Part shown: piece after piece, positions 12,337 to 22,604 of the stretch
How the letters are laid out: each line of letters begins with the position of its first letter
Numbering within the stretch: the first letter of the stretch is position 1
Translations under genes and position numbers: made by a program
IMG/VR virus record: IMGVR_UViG_3300034103_000394
Span: 1-26,267 of that record
Length of the DNA stretch: 26,267 bases
Reading direction: 5' to 3' (one strand)
Source of the DNA: a virus
Notes under the pieces: model-generated
Told to the model about the DNA's origin: nothing
What the model saw: only the letters and a program-made list of their open reading frames with translations
The model's database searches: none

Positions 12337-13431
12337 TTAGTTACCAGCCTCGACGATGTACTTACCGTACTTCTTGTGGAACTCGTCAAAGTTCTTCAAC
12401 TGACTGGGTTCGATGGGCAACTTGAAAGTTTTGAGTGCGACCTTAGCACCCATCACTACAAGTTCAGTCTCAAAGTTACTCATCATGTAGTTGAAGAAAT
12501 TATCAGCCATAGTATGGAACTTCTTCATATCGACCTTGTTCTCAATTGCATCGCGCAATTCGTAACACATTGAAGTAGTCAAGGAATACATAGCCGAAAT
12601 TTCTTTGACGTTGAGGTCCTTGACCTTACCCGACAAGATATCACTCGGGTTAGGCATCTTGCTACTCACCTTGCGGTGTGCCATAAACTTGACGGCAAGA
12701 CCTTCGCCGACAGCACCAGCGACAAGATTGAACATAGTATCGTTGTCGGTGTCAGCCTCATCTTCAAGAATCTGGCTAACGAATGTCCAACTACGCGGGG
12801 TAGCGAATGCACGGCTGCTGGACTTGTTGTCAAAGTCATACAAGTCATTCTTAGCGAACGACAAGTAACCAACAACGTCAGTATGAATGCCTGCGTTCAC
12901 AGCCCAGTTTTGCCATGAAGCAAAGTCTGCCCGCATCTCAAGATGCAAGAAACGATTTGCGAGGGGCATAGGCATACGATACGTCACGCCCTTATCAGAT
13001 TCACGATTACCTGCCGCGACGATAACAACGTTATCGGGCAGTACATACTTACCTACACGGCGATTGAGAACCAACTGATAACCTGCTGCCTGAACAGCGG
13101 GCGGTGCAGAGTTCATCTCGTCAAGAAAGAGAACGATGACGGGATACTTGCTAGCAAGTTCAGCATCAGGTAGATCGACTGGGGGAGCCCAGTCCATGCG
13201 ACCGTTATCTTTGTTGTAGTAAGGGATACCACGCAAGTCAGTGGGCTCCATTTGCGCCATGCGCAAGTCAATCATCAAGCCACCAAGTTCGTTAGTGATT
13301 TCACTCACGACCTCAGACTTGCCGATGCCGGGAGGACCCCAGAGAAACACCGGACGTTTTGCCTTGAATGCCTTGAGAAGGGCCTTGCGAGCCTGGACAG
13401 ATGTAACTGTCATGTTATCAGTAATAGCCAT
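12337..13431 (-). CDS. MoxR-type AAA+ ATPase
   Basis: A 364-residue AAA+ protein of the MoxR/AAA_5 type. Walker A is GPPGIGKS (32-39) and Walker B is VLFLDEMNSAP (about 100-110, Asp104/Glu105). The following PAVQ and the sensor region AAGNRESDKG match the family. MoxR ATPases act with VWA-domain proteins to remodel or mature protein complexes, often by metal insertion. The VWA/metallopeptidase partner is the next gene. The start ATG at 13431 has a TAGGAG ribosome binding site and a sigma-70-like promoter (13463-13491). The pair is known from T4-like cyanophages as I recall, but its role in infection is not established. Confidence 0.93.
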   Translation of the reverse strand: MAITDNMTVTSVQARKALLKAFKAKRPVFLWGPPGIGKSEVVSEITNELGGLMIDLRMAQMEPTDLRGIPYYNKDNGRMDWAPPVDLPDAELASKYPVIVLFLDEMNSAPPAVQAAGYQLVLNRRVGKYVLPDNVVIVAAGNRESDKGVTYRMPMPLANRFLHLEMRADFASWQNWAVNAGIHTDVVGYLSFAKNDLYDFDNKSSSRAFATPRSWTFVSQILEDEADTDNDTMFNLVAGAVGEGLAVKFMAHRKVSSKMPNPSDILSGKVKDLNVKEISAMYSLTTSMCYELRDAIENKVDMKKFHTMADNFFNYMMSNFETELVVMGAKVALKTFKLPIEPSQLKNFDEFHKKYGKYIVEAGN

Positions 13432-15245: not shown

Positions 15246-16639
15246 AATTTTCCATTTGTTTTTGCGGTAGGCGGAATTCCTGCTCTACTTGTTTTGAATT
15301 TAAATGCTTTAGCATTGCTTAAAATACTATCTGGTTTTACATCTACTGTAAGTGCTGTCTTAAATCGCGGATCGTTCTTTTCTTTTTCGCTAGGTATATA
15401 GCCGCTTGCTTCTTTTACTTTTTTACCTTGAACACTTGTAGTTTTCTCTGGCTCCGGCGCACTTGCTTTCTTAGCCTGAGGCATAAACTTGTTTATTGAC
15501 TTTAGTGTGAGAGGTCCTAACACTCCATCAACATCAAGATTAGCATCATATTTTTTGTTTAGAAACTTTTGTATTTTACGCACTGCATCTTCTTTAGACT
15601 CCATCAATGGGCTTTCGCCTTTATAGTCGCGTAATACACCTTTGCCGTCCCACTTAGCACAGCACATGCGCTCAGTCACCCAATCATTGATATCTTTGTG
15701 GTAGCAAAACCCTTTTACTTTTACAGTATCTTTACCAGGCAATGTGACTAGATCAACACGCTTGCTCATAGCGATATATTCTTTATTAGGTGGTTTCAAT
15801 CCACCATACTTGTTTAGTTCATCTTTACCTACAGGTTTTTCGCTATCTTTTTTCCACCATACGCAATTCTTGCAATTGGTGCCTTCAATAAACTTCACGC
15901 TTTCTTTTACATTATAAGTTGGATCATAATCTTCCAAACTTAATTCTTTGCTGTGTAATTCATTTTTGTAATCGTAAAGTTTTTGAATATAACCTAATTT
16001 ACGTAGTGCTTTATAAGATAAATTTTCCGGTCCAAACTCACCCGTACTTTGTAATCCTGCCTTTCTATATCTTTTTAATACGTCTAGGACCTTTTCAACT
16101 TTTTCTAAACTATTTGACTTCAACGCGAGTTCTATCATCGTGCCTAACTTTTCGTATTTGGCTCTTGTTTCATTTTGATCAAAATTTGCTTTTTTCTTTT
16201 TAGGAATTCTTATCCAATCATCATTTACTATACTATATTCACCAAGGCTTACATGAGGTTGATTGCTATCTTGCACGTATAATTCTACCGGGACTCCATG
16301 TACAGAAATGTCATGTTCGTCATTATATAAATTCTTTTTAGCAGTAAACAGTTCTTGGTAAATTTCGTCATCTGGAAGTTTATTGAAATCAACCAATATG
16401 TGCAAATCTAAGTCGCTGTATGGCGTATAACTATAAGCAGCATTACTTCCTGATATCGTGATATCTTGAATTTTAGGTATTGCTACTCCTAATTCTAGTA
16501 TAAAGTCATTCGCTATTTTTAATAACTGCTTTTTTACTTCTGGTTTAAGTTTATTATTTTCCCACAAGTTTGGATTCAGTTCATTATGAAATTTGACTGC
16601 ATCAGATAATTTAAAATCTTCTAACTCACTAATATCCAT
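15242..16639 (-). CDS. Nucleotidyltransferase-domain protein with Cys cluster and peptidoglycan-binding-like domain
   Basis: A 465-residue mosaic. Residues 55-85 hold a polymerase-beta-type nucleotidyltransferase signature: GSNAAY (64-69) then SDLDLHI with Asp76 and Asp78. A helical middle follows. Residues 256-330 carry a CKNC pair, a later Cys312 and MCCAKW (326-327), resembling a small iron-sulfur or zinc site. Residues about 350-388 look like a PG_binding_1 domain (VDGVLGPLTLKSINKF). The tail is Lys/Pro rich. The combination may be virion-associated, since peptidoglycan-binding units occur in tail proteins, but its action is unknown. A late-type ACTAAATA lies exactly five bases before the ATG. 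Confidence 0.75.
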   Translation of the reverse strand: MDISELEDFKLSDAVKFHNELNPNLWENNKLKPEVKKQLLKIANDFILELGVAIPKIQDITISGSNAAYSYTPYSDLDLHILVDFNKLPDDEIYQELFTAKKNLYNDEHDISVHGVPVELYVQDSNQPHVSLGEYSIVNDDWIRIPKKKKANFDQNETRAKYEKLGTMIELALKSNSLEKVEKVLDVLKRYRKAGLQSTGEFGPENLSYKALRKLGYIQKLYDYKNELHSKELSLEDYDPTYNVKESVKFIEGTNCKNCVWWKKDSEKPVGKDELNKYGGLKPPNKEYIAMSKRVDLVTLPGKDTVKVKGFCYHKDINDWVTERMCCAKWDGKGVLRDYKGESPLMESKEDAVRKIQKFLNKKYDANLDVDGVLGPLTLKSINKFMPQAKKASAPEPEKTTSVQGKKVKEASGYIPSEKEKNDPRFKTALTVDVKPDSILSNAKAFKFKTSRAGIPPTAKTNGKL

Positions 16640-16644
16640 AAATG

Positions 16645-16652
16645 TATTTAGT
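16645..16652 (-). promoter_or_regulatory. Late-type promoter variant ACTAAATA, five bases before ATG
   Basis: ACTAAATA on the minus strand is one base off NATAAATA and ends exactly five bases before the ATG at 16639. By T4 late spacing (start six bases after the last A) transcription would begin at the A of the start codon. It overlaps the stop of the oxygenase gene. Confidence 0.45.
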
Positions 16653-17122
16653 TAGAGTTTTTCAAAGGTTAGATGCAATCTGGGGGACGCTCCGGCATTG
16701 ACAAAAGTATGCATTCTGCCATTGTTTACGACATAGACCGACCCGTCTGCGGGCATAGAAAATGCTCTATGGTCGTATACAAAGTGACAGCCAGGATTAG
16801 TTATTAGAGGTATATGTAGACAAATCTCGCCTGCGTCATTATGCCAATTGTAACATGTATTAGGCATCACAAATCTATATGTCACACTATCAAATTCTAA
16901 ATGTTCTTTTAGTTGGTTTATCACAGAAAGTGTGTATTCAACCTTGTTTAAATCCTCTGATTCTTTATTATTTAAAATCAAATGAAATTTCTTCTGAACT
17001 AGCACAGCATTACCGTGATTAGTAACGTCAATTATCCTATCCTTAAATAATTCAAATTCTAATAATAACTTATTAACATTTACAAATGTTTTATCAAGCC
17101 TGTCTATAAAGTGAACTTTCAT
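16652..17122 (-). CDS. 2-oxoglutarate/Fe(II)-dependent oxygenase-like protein
   Basis: A 156-residue protein with the double-stranded beta-helix iron site spelled out: His94 and Asp96 (WHNDAGE), a distal His138 (GRMHTFVN) and Arg148 (RLHL), the expected 2-oxoglutarate-binding arginine ten residues after the distal His. This matches the aspartyl/asparaginyl beta-hydroxylase and related small oxygenases common in T4-like marine phages. The substrate could be a protein or nucleotide. The ATG is five bases after a perfect TATAAATA, with no Shine-Dalgarno site, so leaderless translation is likely. It lies between the tmRNA terminator and the nucleotidyltransferase gene. Confidence 0.82.
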   Translation of the reverse strand: MKVHFIDRLDKTFVNVNKLLLEFELFKDRIIDVTNHGNAVLVQKKFHLILNNKESEDLNKVEYTLSVINQLKEHLEFDSVTYRFVMPNTCYNWHNDAGEICLHIPLITNPGCHFVYDHRAFSMPADGSVYVVNNGRMHTFVNAGASPRLHLTFEKL

Positions 17123-17127
17123 CCAGA

Positions 17128-17135
17128 TATTTATA
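17128..17135 (-). promoter_or_regulatory. Perfect late promoter TATAAATA, five bases before ATG
   Basis: TATAAATA is the exact T4 late -10 element. It sits just downstream of the tmRNA terminator and exactly five bases (TCTGG) before the oxygenase ATG, predicting a leaderless mRNA. Confidence 0.75.
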
Positions 17136-17140
17136 ACGAT

Positions 17141-17168
17141 AAAAAGGTAGGGACAAAAGTCCCCACCT
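17141..17168 (-). terminator. Intrinsic terminator of the tmRNA transcript
   Basis: On the minus strand AGGTGGGGAC, loop TTTT and GTCCCTACCT form a 10-bp stem with one G-T pair, followed by a T-run (17141-17145). It closes the transcript right after the tmRNA coding piece and separates it from the oxygenase promoter. Confidence 0.88.
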
Positions 17169-17169
17169 G

Positions 17170-17488
17170 ACTATTGGTTAATAAGGTCGTCAACCCCATC
17201 TAACTGCCCTTAGGCTGCTAGAGCAAATGTTTCATCATTTGCGTTTACTTTGATTTACGCTGATTACGTCAGTCGTCTTTCGGACTGTCTGCTTGGGTAC
17301 TACTTGCCCTGTCGAAACTGTTCATCCCCTTTGTGTTTTCCATTGGGGGAAGATCCCAACCTACTATTCTACTCCACTCACGCTCTGTAAAAAACAGATT
17401 GCGAGGTTCATCAATCAATCTATTGGTGGAGATGGCGGGATTCGCACCCGCGTCCAAAGCATCTTTCTCCTCACTTCCTACAGTCATA
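17170..17488 (-). ncRNA. ssrA: Circularly permuted two-piece tmRNA
   Basis: The gene order is acceptor piece, intervening segment, coding piece. The acceptor piece (5' end not exact, about 17488) ends at 17424 with an encoded ACCA. It carries GGACGCGGG, a T-arm (stem GCGGG/CCCGC, 17435-17451) and CATCTCC (17428-17434). After 94 bases, the coding piece starts at 17329 with GGGGATGAACAGTTTCGACA. GGGGATG pairs with CATCTCC over seven bp, including the G3-U70 identity pair for alanine (17327 with 17430). ACAGTC and GACTGT give a P2-type helix. The tag frame starts after GTAAAC. tmRNA with SmpB rescues stalled ribosomes and tags their products. An intrinsic terminator follows. The T-loop TGCGAAT departs from the usual TTC start. 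The 3' end near 17170 is approximate. Confidence 0.95.
17210..17242 (-). other. tmRNA tag reading frame, ANDETFALAA
   Basis: GCA at 17240-17242 is the resume codon, directly after the conserved GTAAAC context. Ten codons read A-N-D-E-T-F-A-L-A-A and stop at TAA (17210-17212). With the alanine charged on tmRNA the full tag is AANDETFALAA. The ALAA end is the recognised ClpXP/ClpA degron type. Confidence 0.93.
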
Positions 17489-17611
17489 TCAATAAACTAA
17501 TCCGTACGCTATACACCAGACTTCTAGTGCTAATCTATAGAGCAGATGGGACAAAATATATGCCCCAACTGCCGCAATAGAAACTTTCAATAATGTTTCT
17601 GTGCTATCCAT
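17489..17611 (-). CDS. Predicted 40-residue membrane mini-protein upstream of tmRNA
   Basis: An ATG at 17611 opens 40 codons ending TGA at 17489, just where the tmRNA acceptor piece is expected to begin. The product starts MDSTETLLKVSIAAVGAYIL and is hydrophobic almost to the end, fitting one transmembrane helix. There is no Shine-Dalgarno site. The ATG is exactly five bases after a late promoter AATAAATA (17617-17624), as at 17122 and 19185. It would be read on the tmRNA precursor. Against it: short length, and the region could simply be the 5' leader or part of the acceptor RNA. Confidence 0.45.
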   Translation of the reverse strand: MDSTETLLKVSIAAVGAYILSHLLYRLALEVWCIAYGLVY

Positions 17612-17616
17612 ATAGG

Positions 17617-17624
17617 TATTTATT
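17617..17624 (-). promoter_or_regulatory. Late promoter AATAAATA for the tmRNA unit
   Basis: AATAAATA on the minus strand fits NATAAATA. It overlaps the stop of the 74-residue gene and lies about 130 bases before the estimated acceptor piece. The transcript would start at about 17611, the A of the mini-ORF ATG. Confidence 0.65.
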
Positions 17625-17844
17625 CGCCCTTGCTAACAAACTCGTTTAGTTTTTTCGCTTCGGCAATAATATCTTCTGATGTGGGTGCTGTAGGCATTTC
17701 TGGAAATGGTGCATAAGGATTTGCATCCCGTTGTGCGTTCCACTCTAGTTCCTTATTTGACCTTGCGTAAAAGTATGGCTCAAAGAGACTTTCTTTAGCC
17801 AGTCTTAGTAGATCCAGACGGATCTCGTATGGTGTTTTGCTCAT
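17620..17844 (-). CDS. Conserved small phage protein
   Basis: A 74-residue protein (MSKTPYEIRLDLLRLAKESL at the start), helical in the first half, with a proline-rich centre and a helical Lys/Glu end. I recall similar MSKTP-type small proteins in T4-like cyanophages; the function is unknown. The start has an excellent AGGAGGT ribosome binding site about six bases upstream, in contrast to the leaderless genes nearby. It is probably read with the DNA methylase gene, 49 bases upstream. Confidence 0.78.
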   Translation of the reverse strand: MSKTPYEIRLDLLRLAKESLFEPYFYARSNKELEWNAQRDANPYAPFPEMPTAPTSEDIIAEAKKLNEFVSKGE

Positions 17845-17893
17845 AATTACCTCCTGTGTGTATGTGTGTGTTTTTTATAAGCAGTAGTATATA

Positions 17894-19138
17894 TCAAATA
17901 TCATAGTGATTATTATTTTTTCTGAACACCCAAATTGGCTCTACAAATATACTATTCTTATCTGCCTCTACAATAGCATGTGGCCTAGCCTGCATACGCA
18001 TACCGATCTTACCTAGATAGTATGCATTTTGGTAAGTCAATATGTCATCAACCATGTCATCACATAAGTTTAAACGTGTGCCCTTTGCGATTCTAGGTTC
18101 AATGATATTGATCATCATATAAGCATTGTCAGATAGTGTGTCCCATACCATGCGATTGACTTTGAAAAAGAAGTCATGTTTCCAACTATCAAATGTCTGA
18201 TATCGTATATAACTTTGTGTGCTGCTATGATTAGCCGCATATCGTTCTGTCTCATAGTAGGGAGGGCTTGTAAAATAAAAGTCAAATGTGTTTTCGTGCT
18301 TACTCCAATCAACATCTTCGCTAGGCAAATTATAAATGATTACCTTTTTTGTGCCTAATACAATAAAATGATCGCCCTTGTCTTGTAGTACAGCACTATC
18401 ACAGCCCAACATGTTTTCATATTCTAAGCACTGGTCTTTGTACGTCTCATAGACTTCAGGATTGGGATCACATCCAACATACAGTTCTGTATGTGACGTA
18501 GCATAGAAGCCTGCTAATCTATCACCCCAACCACAACTAGTATCTAATACTTTATGTGCCTTATGTTTCTCATATAATGCTTTCGCAACAGTAGGTTTAA
18601 ATTGTGTTGCTGTATAGGTTCCTATACGAAAGGCGCTGCGAAATGTACTATTATCAATATCACTATTACCTAATGCGCCCAATCGCCAGAAGTGCCAATT
18701 CATACGTGACAACTTTGTTTTGTCATGCCATATATCATATGGGCTATCAACAAGATTGCTACCACACTTCATGCGATTAAGTTGTTGAAAATAATTACTT
18801 ACGCTATTGTATGCGTGAGACTTATCAATCACACCTAACGGGTTCTGGTTATACTTATATTTGTAATCAAACTTTTCTAAAACATTTTGTACATTCTTAT
18901 AATGTCCCATCATTGATGTTTTAGTAAATTTCGTGAATAGACGATTTAAATCATCATACGATATTTTTTTAGTAGGAAATGGAATATTATTAGAAATTAT
19001 ATATTCAGCAAGACTATCTTTTATGCTGTCCTTATCATATTGTTTGATAAGATTCTTCCATTCTCTATTAGGAATAAAGGGTATTCCACGACTATCACCG
19101 TGATATTCAAAATACTTGATCAAATCATGATTAACCAT
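17894..19138 (-). CDS. DNA methylase-like protein (TSPPYY)
   Basis: A 414-residue protein with motif I VLDTSCGWGDR (about 197-207) for SAM binding, an acidic VGCDPNPEVY strand end (221-230), and motif IV TSPPYYET (about 290-297), the DPPY-type catalytic motif of amino-DNA methyltransferases (N4 or N6). The first 190 residues have no familiar motif and may recognise the target. Likely roles are protecting phage DNA from restriction or changing its regulation; no restriction partner is visible. The ATG at 19138 sits six bases after TATAAT of a consensus sigma-70 promoter and lacks a Shine-Dalgarno site, so an early leaderless mRNA is predicted. Confidence 0.82.
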   Translation of the reverse strand: MVNHDLIKYFEYHGDSRGIPFIPNREWKNLIKQYDKDSIKDSLAEYIISNNIPFPTKKISYDDLNRLFTKFTKTSMMGHYKNVQNVLEKFDYKYKYNQNPLGVIDKSHAYNSVSNYFQQLNRMKCGSNLVDSPYDIWHDKTKLSRMNWHFWRLGALGNSDIDNSTFRSAFRIGTYTATQFKPTVAKALYEKHKAHKVLDTSCGWGDRLAGFYATSHTELYVGCDPNPEVYETYKDQCLEYENMLGCDSAVLQDKGDHFIVLGTKKVIIYNLPSEDVDWSKHENTFDFYFTSPPYYETERYAANHSSTQSYIRYQTFDSWKHDFFFKVNRMVWDTLSDNAYMMINIIEPRIAKGTRLNLCDDMVDDILTYQNAYYLGKIGMRMQARPHAIVEADKNSIFVEPIWVFRKNNNHYDI

Positions 19139-21248: not shown

Positions 21249-21253
21249 ATTCG

Positions 21254-21321
21254 CTTCGGCTTGGATTCGAACCTTGTCCTAGTCTTCTCGATCTGTACTT
21301 CCCACAGTACTGACCGAAGCC
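21254..21321 (-). other. Structured, tRNA-like intergenic element, identity unresolved
   Basis: Between convergent genes, a perfect 7-bp stem GCTTCGG/CCGAAGC (21254-21260 with 21315-21321) encloses a hairpin GTACT/AGTAC (21296-21300 with 21307-21311). On the minus strand a T-loop-like GGTTCGAATCC (21264-21274) lies before the 3' stem arm. The 68-base length and an acceptor-like stem recall a tRNA, but the T-stem is mismatched and no anticodon arm forms. On the plus strand T6 follows the stem (21323-21328), so it may also end the rightward transcript. A TATAAATA lies at 21423-21430 on the minus strand. Confidence 0.35.
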
Positions 21322-21425
21322 TTTTTTCTGGTTTGTCTCTGATGTCCCGGAAACATCTTGACCCTACAACAACGCCATCGCTATGCGACAAACACTACTC
21401 CAGAAGGTCGTGCGGCTCAGTTTAT

Positions 21426-22604
21426 TTATACTTTTCTTGTATTTCCGTAAAATATAGTACTGCCTTTGTGCGTTTTTATCTGTCGCCAAGGGTCAATGAC
21501 CGTCGCAGATTGTGGAAAATTTAATTGTTGTGTATAATTGTCCCAGTAGCCTATCAAGTAAACTTCTGTCCAGTCTGAGCGTAAATCTGTATCACCTGTA
21601 TGCTCATCATAGTAATGTAGATTGCCACCATGCTTCTCAATATAGTGTCCCACTAACATACTTGCGCTACCGTTGGTGTAGGGTATTTTGGGCTTGTATG
21701 CTTTGCCGACAATTGTAACGTTCTTGCCGTACTCTAAGCATTTTTTAGCCATACGTTCTGCTTGTACTTCTCTAGCAGTCATAATGGCATCAAACAAATC
21801 ATATCCTAATCCTAGACGTTCGGCTAGATAACGTAATGCAATATTATCTCTTGGATGACATGCTCCTGCATCCCCTAATCCTGCTTTCATATATGCAGGA
21901 CCCATGATACGATGTGTGGACTTTGCTAATGCGTTTGTAACTACGTCAACATTAATATTGCCGTTCGTTTCAGCAACATCCTGTAACATGTTAACTAATG
22001 CTAACTTTGTACTAATAAAGGTATTATAGAAAATTTTTATACTTTCTGCTTCATCCCATGTACCAACTTCATAACGTGGATCATTTTCCATAAAGACATT
22101 ATAGAAATCTATTAATTCTTTAGCGTCACCTGTTACACTACCATCTTCTGTGCCTATGATGATCATTTCAGGATTTACCATATCATGTTTGACAGTACCC
22201 ATAGCAATCAGATATGGATTGTAAATGAATCGTGCGTTGGTGATACAAGGTTCCAACTGGCTGCGTACAGTTCCCGGCAAGACAGTACTAATGAGTACTA
22301 CCAATTGATTCTTATTAACGTACTTGTTTACTTCTTTTAATATATCTGTAACGATAGTGTAATCAAAATCTTTGTTAGGTAAATGACTAGTAGGTGTTTC
22401 GCCACCATATATAGGATCATGAGGAGTAGGAGCAGCGATAAAGATAAAATCTCTGTCAACTACTGCATCTTTGATAGAATCTTTCATAGGAAATGTAGTA
22501 GTTTTTGTACTAATATCATAACCTACAGTATCATAATGTAATGCCATGACTTCGGCGCAGTCTTGCCCTAACTTGCCTACGCCGATCATCGCCACTTTCT
22601 TCAT
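21426..22604 (-). CDS. UDP-glucose/GDP-mannose dehydrogenase family protein
   Basis: A 392-residue NAD-dependent sugar-nucleotide dehydrogenase. The Rossmann motif GVGKLG lies at about 8-13, STVLPGTV at 106-113, IKIFYNTF at 189-196, and the catalytic loop GDAGACHPRDN with Cys249 at about 244-254. The C-terminal domain starts with VTIVGKAYKP. The family oxidises UDP-glucose (or a related sugar) to the uronic acid. Catalytic residues are present and the length is normal, so it is probably active. It starts two bases after the SpeD-like stop. With the epimerase and aminotransferase it points to nucleotide-sugar supply for glycan synthesis. Confidence 0.9.
   Translation of the reverse strand: MKKVAMIGVGKLGQDCAEVMALHYDTVGYDISTKTTTFPMKDSIKDAVVDRDFIFIAAPTPHDPIYGGETPTSHLPNKDFDYTIVTDILKEVNKYVNKNQLVVLISTVLPGTVRSQLEPCITNARFIYNPYLIAMGTVKHDMVNPEMIIIGTEDGSVTGDAKELIDFYNVFMENDPRYEVGTWDEAESIKIFYNTFISTKLALVNMLQDVAETNGNINVDVVTNALAKSTHRIMGPAYMKAGLGDAGACHPRDNIALRYLAERLGLGYDLFDAIMTAREVQAERMAKKCLEYGKNVTIVGKAYKPKIPYTNGSASMLVGHYIEKHGGNLHYYDEHTGDTDLRSDWTEVYLIGYWDNYTQQLNFPQSATVIDPWRQIKTHKGSTIFYGNTRKV

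Follow-up and report, generated by a model that had tools for sequence, protein, structure and literature searches.

The 26,267-nucleotide stretch of viral DNA analysed here (IMG/VR record IMGVR_UViG_3300034103_000394; hereafter the window) is a 26-kb piece of the genome of a large tailed phage. We consider it probable that this phage encodes a permuted two-piece transfer-messenger RNA (tmRNA) of a type found in a minority of Burkholderiales, that the intervening segment (IVS) of the gene serves as a cargo slot, and that the precursor RNA doubles as a messenger RNA. An earlier note on this DNA had placed a permuted tmRNA within 17141-17624; the gene was indeed found there, on the minus strand (17540-17143; ARAGORN and Rfam), while the coding content of its IVS, the most unusual feature of the locus, had been overlooked.

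A complete permuted tmRNA gene

ARAGORN called a permuted tmRNA (tmRNA*) on the minus strand with the tag ANDETFALAA. Comparison with Rfam returned full-length matches to RF04321 (tmRNA_permuted; 132.3 bits, cut-off 47; 17485-17210, minus) and RF01850 (beta_tmRNA; 125.3 bits, cut-off 84; 17540-17143, minus). RF01850 was the best match of its clan and the terminal hairpin is present, as in the betaproteobacterial type. The 3′ acceptor part is followed by the IVS and then by the 5′ tRNA-like and coding part. The encoded CCA, located by eye, ends at 17424; 5′-GGGGAUG and CAUCUCC pair at 7/7 positions, including G3-U70; and the tag frame, which has a resume codon and a degron-like C-terminal end, reads GCA AAU GAU GAA ACA UUU GCU CUA GCA GCC UAA. 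The description of the sequence in the earlier note (encoded CCA, 94-base IVS, seven-base-pair stem with G3-U70, tag and terminator) holds throughout. As judged from its sequence, the gene is a complete permuted tmRNA, comprising an acceptor piece, an AlaRS-type G3-U70 pair, a resume region, a degron-like tag and a terminator. It is two-piece by design, and cleavage into two RNAs is predicted.

A conserved reading frame crosses the IVS

The IVS of the window carries a conserved peptide (LFFTEREWSR...) in a frame that opens at an AUG at 17487 and stops at 17269. A related locus, L133, reads ...PRNLFYTEREWSRLVGW... where the window reads ...PRNLFFTEREWSRIVGW..., and over 18 codons the proportion of synonymous sites that differ (pS) is 0.64 compared with 0.16 for nonsynonymous sites (pN; Fisher p=0.004), the peptide being conserved through switches of Ser and Arg codon family; the remaining two frames show the reverse pattern. 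The motif is kept in 13 distinct sequences with a pN/pS of 0.25, and both the window and L133 hold the frame open for ∼67-72 codons. A search of all viral contigs with the peptide returned 25 loci, each of the 25 inside the IVS of a permuted tmRNA; this count includes L465, which the pairing rule used to find tmRNAs misses as the contig ends early, the arrangement being visible in its sequence. These loci include an own-start class (L476-L483 and others), in which the peptide has its own AAGGAG and ATG. No Shine-Dalgarno and ATG of its own was found just after the CCA in the IVS of the window, which belongs to a frame-through class with an upstream start; in L133 a promoter-like site is followed by AGAGG 6 nt ahead of the same AUG.

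The substitutions display the signature of coding selection on the IVS frame of the window's class. They also bear on a simpler explanation, that this is an ordinary phage permuted tmRNA whose IVS frame is a remnant, not translated, of a gene that the IVS once held. A relic would fit the intact tmRNA, the lack of a clear Shine-Dalgarno ahead of the window frame and the absence of an IVS ATG upstream of the peptide. We nevertheless regard it as unlikely, as the differences between the window and L133 are mostly synonymous in this frame only, the frame is open in both, with the L133 Shine-Dalgarno at the same AUG, and the motif is constrained across the 13 sequences.

IVSs of related phages carry complete small genes

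The IVS was surveyed in 153 phage permuted tmRNAs that are distinct in the sense of not being identical (exact-sequence deduplication), so that the counts are not counts of independent events. They were drawn, by a pairing rule that overlooks unusual variants, from scans of metagenomic and partial records that were not selected by IVS content. Phage IVSs span 12-531 nt, compared with 25-43 nt in six Burkholderiales permuted tmRNA genes and 6-116 nt in thirty other Pseudomonadota loci. The ends of the IVS pair with each other in 117 of 132 phage IVSs of at least 40 nt outside the frame-through class, compared with 4% of shuffles, and TGAT directly precedes the coding piece in 111 of the phage IVSs. 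Phage IVSs thus usually take the form of a hairpin that stacks on the acceptor stem. The end hairpin was seen in none of the 13 members of the frame-through class.

The IVS measures ≥90 nt in 48 of the 153 genes, and half of these (24/48) contain an open reading frame (ORF) of at least 20 amino acids that begins at an ATG with a Shine-Dalgarno no more than 34 nt from the CCA, whereas shuffled sequences gave a mean of 1.3 and a maximum of 6. The stop codon of the IVS ORF often ends one base ahead of the first base of the coding piece. Eight related pairs of IVS ORFs have a pooled pN/pS of 0.19 (p ∼1e-28, a nominal value as the sequences are related). A search with the pattern CCA-TAAGGAnnTTnATG returned 29 stretches, nearly all with IVS genes of the own-start arrangement; as the pattern selects for a Shine-Dalgarno and ATG, these are excluded from the rates.

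The cargo is diverse. IVS products scoring above the Pfam cut-off are a DUF2061 protein (L361, a 320-kb record; 72.6 bits), a thioredoxin (L450, from the pattern-selected set; 73.7 bits), an Oxidored-like protein (L512; 45.5 bits) and a CxxCxxCC protein (L510; 29.4 bits). In L512 the tmRNA is immediately preceded by a thioredoxin-like gene, and since the L450 thioredoxin is inside the IVS, cargo genes seem to have moved. The idea that homing-type genes are the sole cargo was considered and rejected, as an HNH-like ORF was seen in L557 only and falls slightly under the Pfam cut-off. On sequence evidence, then, the IVS in relatives of the window is shown to be a slot in which whole small genes follow the CCA immediately. 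We propose a class of IVS-gene-bearing phage tmRNAs, defined by a coding frame under purifying selection in the IVS, to which the window would belong. Separately, L069, L050, L165 and L430 (Sinorhizobium phage Phosso) have IVSs of 138-174 nt and ∼400 nt with no convincing ORF, and these long segments possibly hold non-coding RNA cargo.

Several points, besides the non-independence of the survey counts, weigh against a translated IVS frame in the window. The selection test against L133 covers just 18 codons. The window AUG lacks a clear Shine-Dalgarno, and the acceptor piece would have to be unfolded by any ribosome that translates this frame. In the marine-like members of the class the start would be GUG. 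The IVS peptide matched no Pfam family and, by tblastn, nothing in the isolate phage collection. The IVSs of the few cultured phages examined are non-coding: no cargo gene was seen in X1, XacN1, QDWS359, Rb1, BUCT628, Marzo, DLP_6 or QDWS595 (IVS 26-126 nt), nor in Phosso (∼400 nt).

Transcription and a possible dual role of the precursor

The gene had been described as lying under a phage late promoter, and this stands in part. The AATAAATA site upstream matches the T4-type late-promoter sequence TATAAATA at 7/8 positions, and [N]ATAAATA occurs upstream in all 13 tested loci of the frame-through class (chance expectation, ∼0.6 over the 16 peptide loci tested); a 40-amino-acid ORF, however, intervenes before the acceptor piece. 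Exact TATAAATA was found upstream of the tmRNA in only 1 of 31 loci (0.48 expected), and the test became informative when redone with ATAAATA and by IVS class. Sigma-70-like promoters precede the tmRNA in 41 of 164 other relatives (2.5 expected) and in none of the loci of the window's class. When 16600-17900 was scanned with promoter consensus sequences, promoter-like sites were no more frequent than in shuffles. The UGA of the 40-amino-acid ORF sits 1 nt ahead of the AUG of the next ORF (UGAUAUG); the ORF is absent from L133. Its product is a putative membrane protein, and a similar ORF lies within the IVS of L595.

In the mechanism that we propose, late transcription would begin from the AATAAATA site and host tRNA-processing enzymes would remove the IVS. 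The two tmRNA pieces would then join by pairing and be charged with alanine, and, with host SmpB, the charged tmRNA would release stalled ribosomes, the tagged chains passing to host proteases. The precursor would also serve as mRNA: in the window, translation may reinitiate at AUG 17487 once the 40-amino-acid ORF has ended at its UGA, and then cross the acceptor piece and IVS before cutting. Our guess is that this passage delays tmRNA maturation. A bolder version, which we offer tentatively and think unlikely, is that the precursor has two purposes, translation of the frame yielding a phage peptide and delaying folding and cutting, with scarce or stalled ribosomes leading to tmRNA instead. 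If so, ribosome rescue and peptide production would be alternative fates of a single transcript. The system offers a direct test of how, in an infected cell, translation and tmRNA maturation share one transcript. If the cargo-slot interpretation is correct, the gene of a stable RNA that tRNA-processing enzymes cut acts as a docking site for small genes, and the IVS proteins would escape annotation that masks RNA genes.

The phage tmRNA could instead serve mainly for ends besides rescue, as a decoy that titrates host SmpB or as a means of phage-specific tagging of host proteins. Phage RNA of the DS6A type, which consists only of a tRNA-like domain (TLD), is reported to inhibit tmRNA (PMC4131195; PMC11915505), and related phages have tags of 23-31 amino acids, some ending in LAV instead of LAA. 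The window RNA is complete, however, and carries a degron tag that is common in bacteria, which makes this explanation improbable. The idea in the earlier note that the phage imposes its own tag is weakened likewise, since ANDETFALAA occurs in >100 proteobacterial genome loci among the matches listed, and a phage-specific tag was rejected as a candidate. Phage tmRNA tags form two size groups, of 8-15 and 21-31 amino acids (tmRNA loci L185, L187, L346, L355, L433, L493, L513, L521, L546 and others); the long tags include ANADTFDFSAMSFTGNTVRGAANESRFALAA and GEVTVSGKNVKFSAR...LAV, with C-terminal LAV rather than LAA.

Phage origin of the gene and its bacterial counterparts

The betaproteobacterial model scores on the window tmRNA, as it would on a host ssrA gene misassembled into a phage contig, a caveat raised in the earlier note. 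This explanation can be dismissed with near certainty. Several independent contigs have the same arrangement, and a search with the hydroxylase gene downstream returned four contigs in which this gene is 100% identical and the tag is the same, as well as diverged relatives with a different tmRNA. The gene also keeps its position relative to a MoxR-like ATPase gene in divergent phages. A search of viral sequences with the MoxR protein returned at least 600 stretches, and among the best 80, which were analysed, 19 carry a permuted tmRNA upstream of MoxR, on its strand and at a distance of 0.9-8 kb; in none of the 80 was one found downstream or on the opposite strand. When 50 MoxR-bearing phage records were searched in full, 34 had a permuted tmRNA that scored over the family cut-off; among the 11 records of at least 200 kb, 10 had one. 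This upholds the view that the gene is phage-encoded. An SmpB gene was not found in these 50 records by a search that detects SmpB in 10 named bacterial control genomes.

In a tree of both tmRNA pieces the window groups with L133 (0.99), alongside tmRNAs of Stenotrophomonas phages including DLP_6; it lies close to the permuted genes of Burkholderiales and is well separated from those of alphaproteobacteria, with weak deeper nodes. The comparison of the tag with bacterial genomes, also proposed beforehand, showed ANDETFALAA to be shared by Paraburkholderia, Caballeronia, Pandoraea and Colwellia, among others; within the matches listed, however, every such locus with an ARAGORN call is an ordinary one-piece tmRNA. 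Permuted tmRNA of the RF01850 type was above cut-off in only 6 of 200 sampled Burkholderiales genomes. A blastn search of isolate phages with a marine phage tmRNA gave no match.

Relation to known tmRNAs

The earlier note had overstated the rarity of the permuted form. The methylophage Melnitz has a two-piece tmRNA, and that 2022 study counts 53 phage tmRNA structures of the two-piece kind, as well as 17 of 47 Melnitz-like contigs (PMC9004378); many more were found here. Huge phages that encode tmRNA and SmpB are on record (PMC7162821), and a 2025 tmRNA database paper lists 79 bacteriophage sequences and describes permuted tmRNA IVSs of which one holds a tRNA-Ala gene and one a repetitive element (PMC11915505). 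A literature search, whose coverage excluded subscription papers and most preprints, found protein genes in a tmRNA IVS nowhere described. Permuted phage tmRNA itself is thus already known, and the IVS protein genes seem undescribed in the literature searched.

The window tmRNA resembles the betaproteobacterial two-piece tmRNA (RF01850; merged model RF04321) in piece order, terminal hairpin, tag and full-length match above cut-off. It differs in being phage-encoded, and host IVSs measure 25-43 nt (n=6) whereas phage IVSs reach 531 nt with genes. The two-piece tmRNAs of Melnitz and pelagiphages are likewise phage-encoded and permuted, but that of Melnitz is of alphaproteobacterial type with a glutamine riboswitch, and the text consulted mentions no IVS protein gene (PMC9004378). 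The permuted tmRNAs of the database paper share extra IVS sequence; there the insert is an RNA gene in one case and a repeat in the other, and the text consulted mentions no protein gene (PMC11915505). Group I intron tmRNA genes with homing-endonuclease genes also have a protein gene inside a tmRNA gene, but the carrier is a self-splicing intron in the T-loop, whereas in phages the permuted form carries its cargo, mostly not an endonuclease, in the IVS.

Genomic context

The window encodes a MoxR-like ATPase, its VWA partner and SAM decarboxylase, and contains T4-type TATAAATA sites (Table 1). The Asp/Arg beta-hydroxylase-like gene adjoins the tmRNA in related phages too.

Table 1. Positions of the tmRNA and neighbouring features in the window.
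Feature	Position	Strand	Remarks
MoxR-like AAA ATPase	12337..13431	-	syntenic marker, 0.9-8 kb downstream of tmRNA
Asp/Arg beta-hydroxylase-like gene (PF05118)	16652..17122	-	next gene downstream of tmRNA
Late-promoter-like site TATAAATA	17128..17135	-	precedes downstream hydroxylase gene
tmRNA coding piece	17143..17329	-	first bases GGGGATGAACAGTTTCGACA at 17329
Intrinsic terminator	17145..17168	-	10-bp hairpin and T run
Tag reading frame ANDETFALAA*	17210..17242	-	ARAGORN, Rfam
72-amino-acid open frame	17269..17487	-	through acceptor piece, IVS and start of coding piece
IVS	17330..17423	-	exactly 94 nt
Conserved coding core in IVS	17356..17406	-	PRNLFFTEREWSRIVGW
Acceptor piece	17424..17485	-	T arm, 3′ acceptor strand, encoded CCA; 5′ end putative, RF01850 match from 17540
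40-amino-acid ORF	17489..17611	-	MDSTETLLKVSIAAVGAYILSHLLYRLALEVWCIAYGLVY; between promoter-like site and tmRNA
T4-type late-promoter-like site AATAAATA	17617..17624	-	7/8 match to TATAAATA

Elsewhere in the window, at 21253-21321 and 21373-21430 on the minus strand, TATAAATA is followed by a COG2908 RNA (Rfam, 67 bits) and then by a small structured RNA (GTCAGTACTGTGGGAAGTACAGATCGAGAAGACTAGGACAAGGTTCGAATCC) that had no Rfam match at the gathering threshold. The core of the latter recurs inside a tmRNA IVS (L356), alone (L456) and directly before a tmRNA acceptor piece (L533).

Permuted tmRNAs were also found, unannotated as such, in the records of cultured phages: Xanthomonas phage XacN1 (L604), X1 (L603), QDWS359 (L605), Rb1 (L606), Alcaligenes phage QDWS595 (L333) and DLP_6 (L332). 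Several of these phages have hosts from the Xanthomonas/Stenotrophomonas group.
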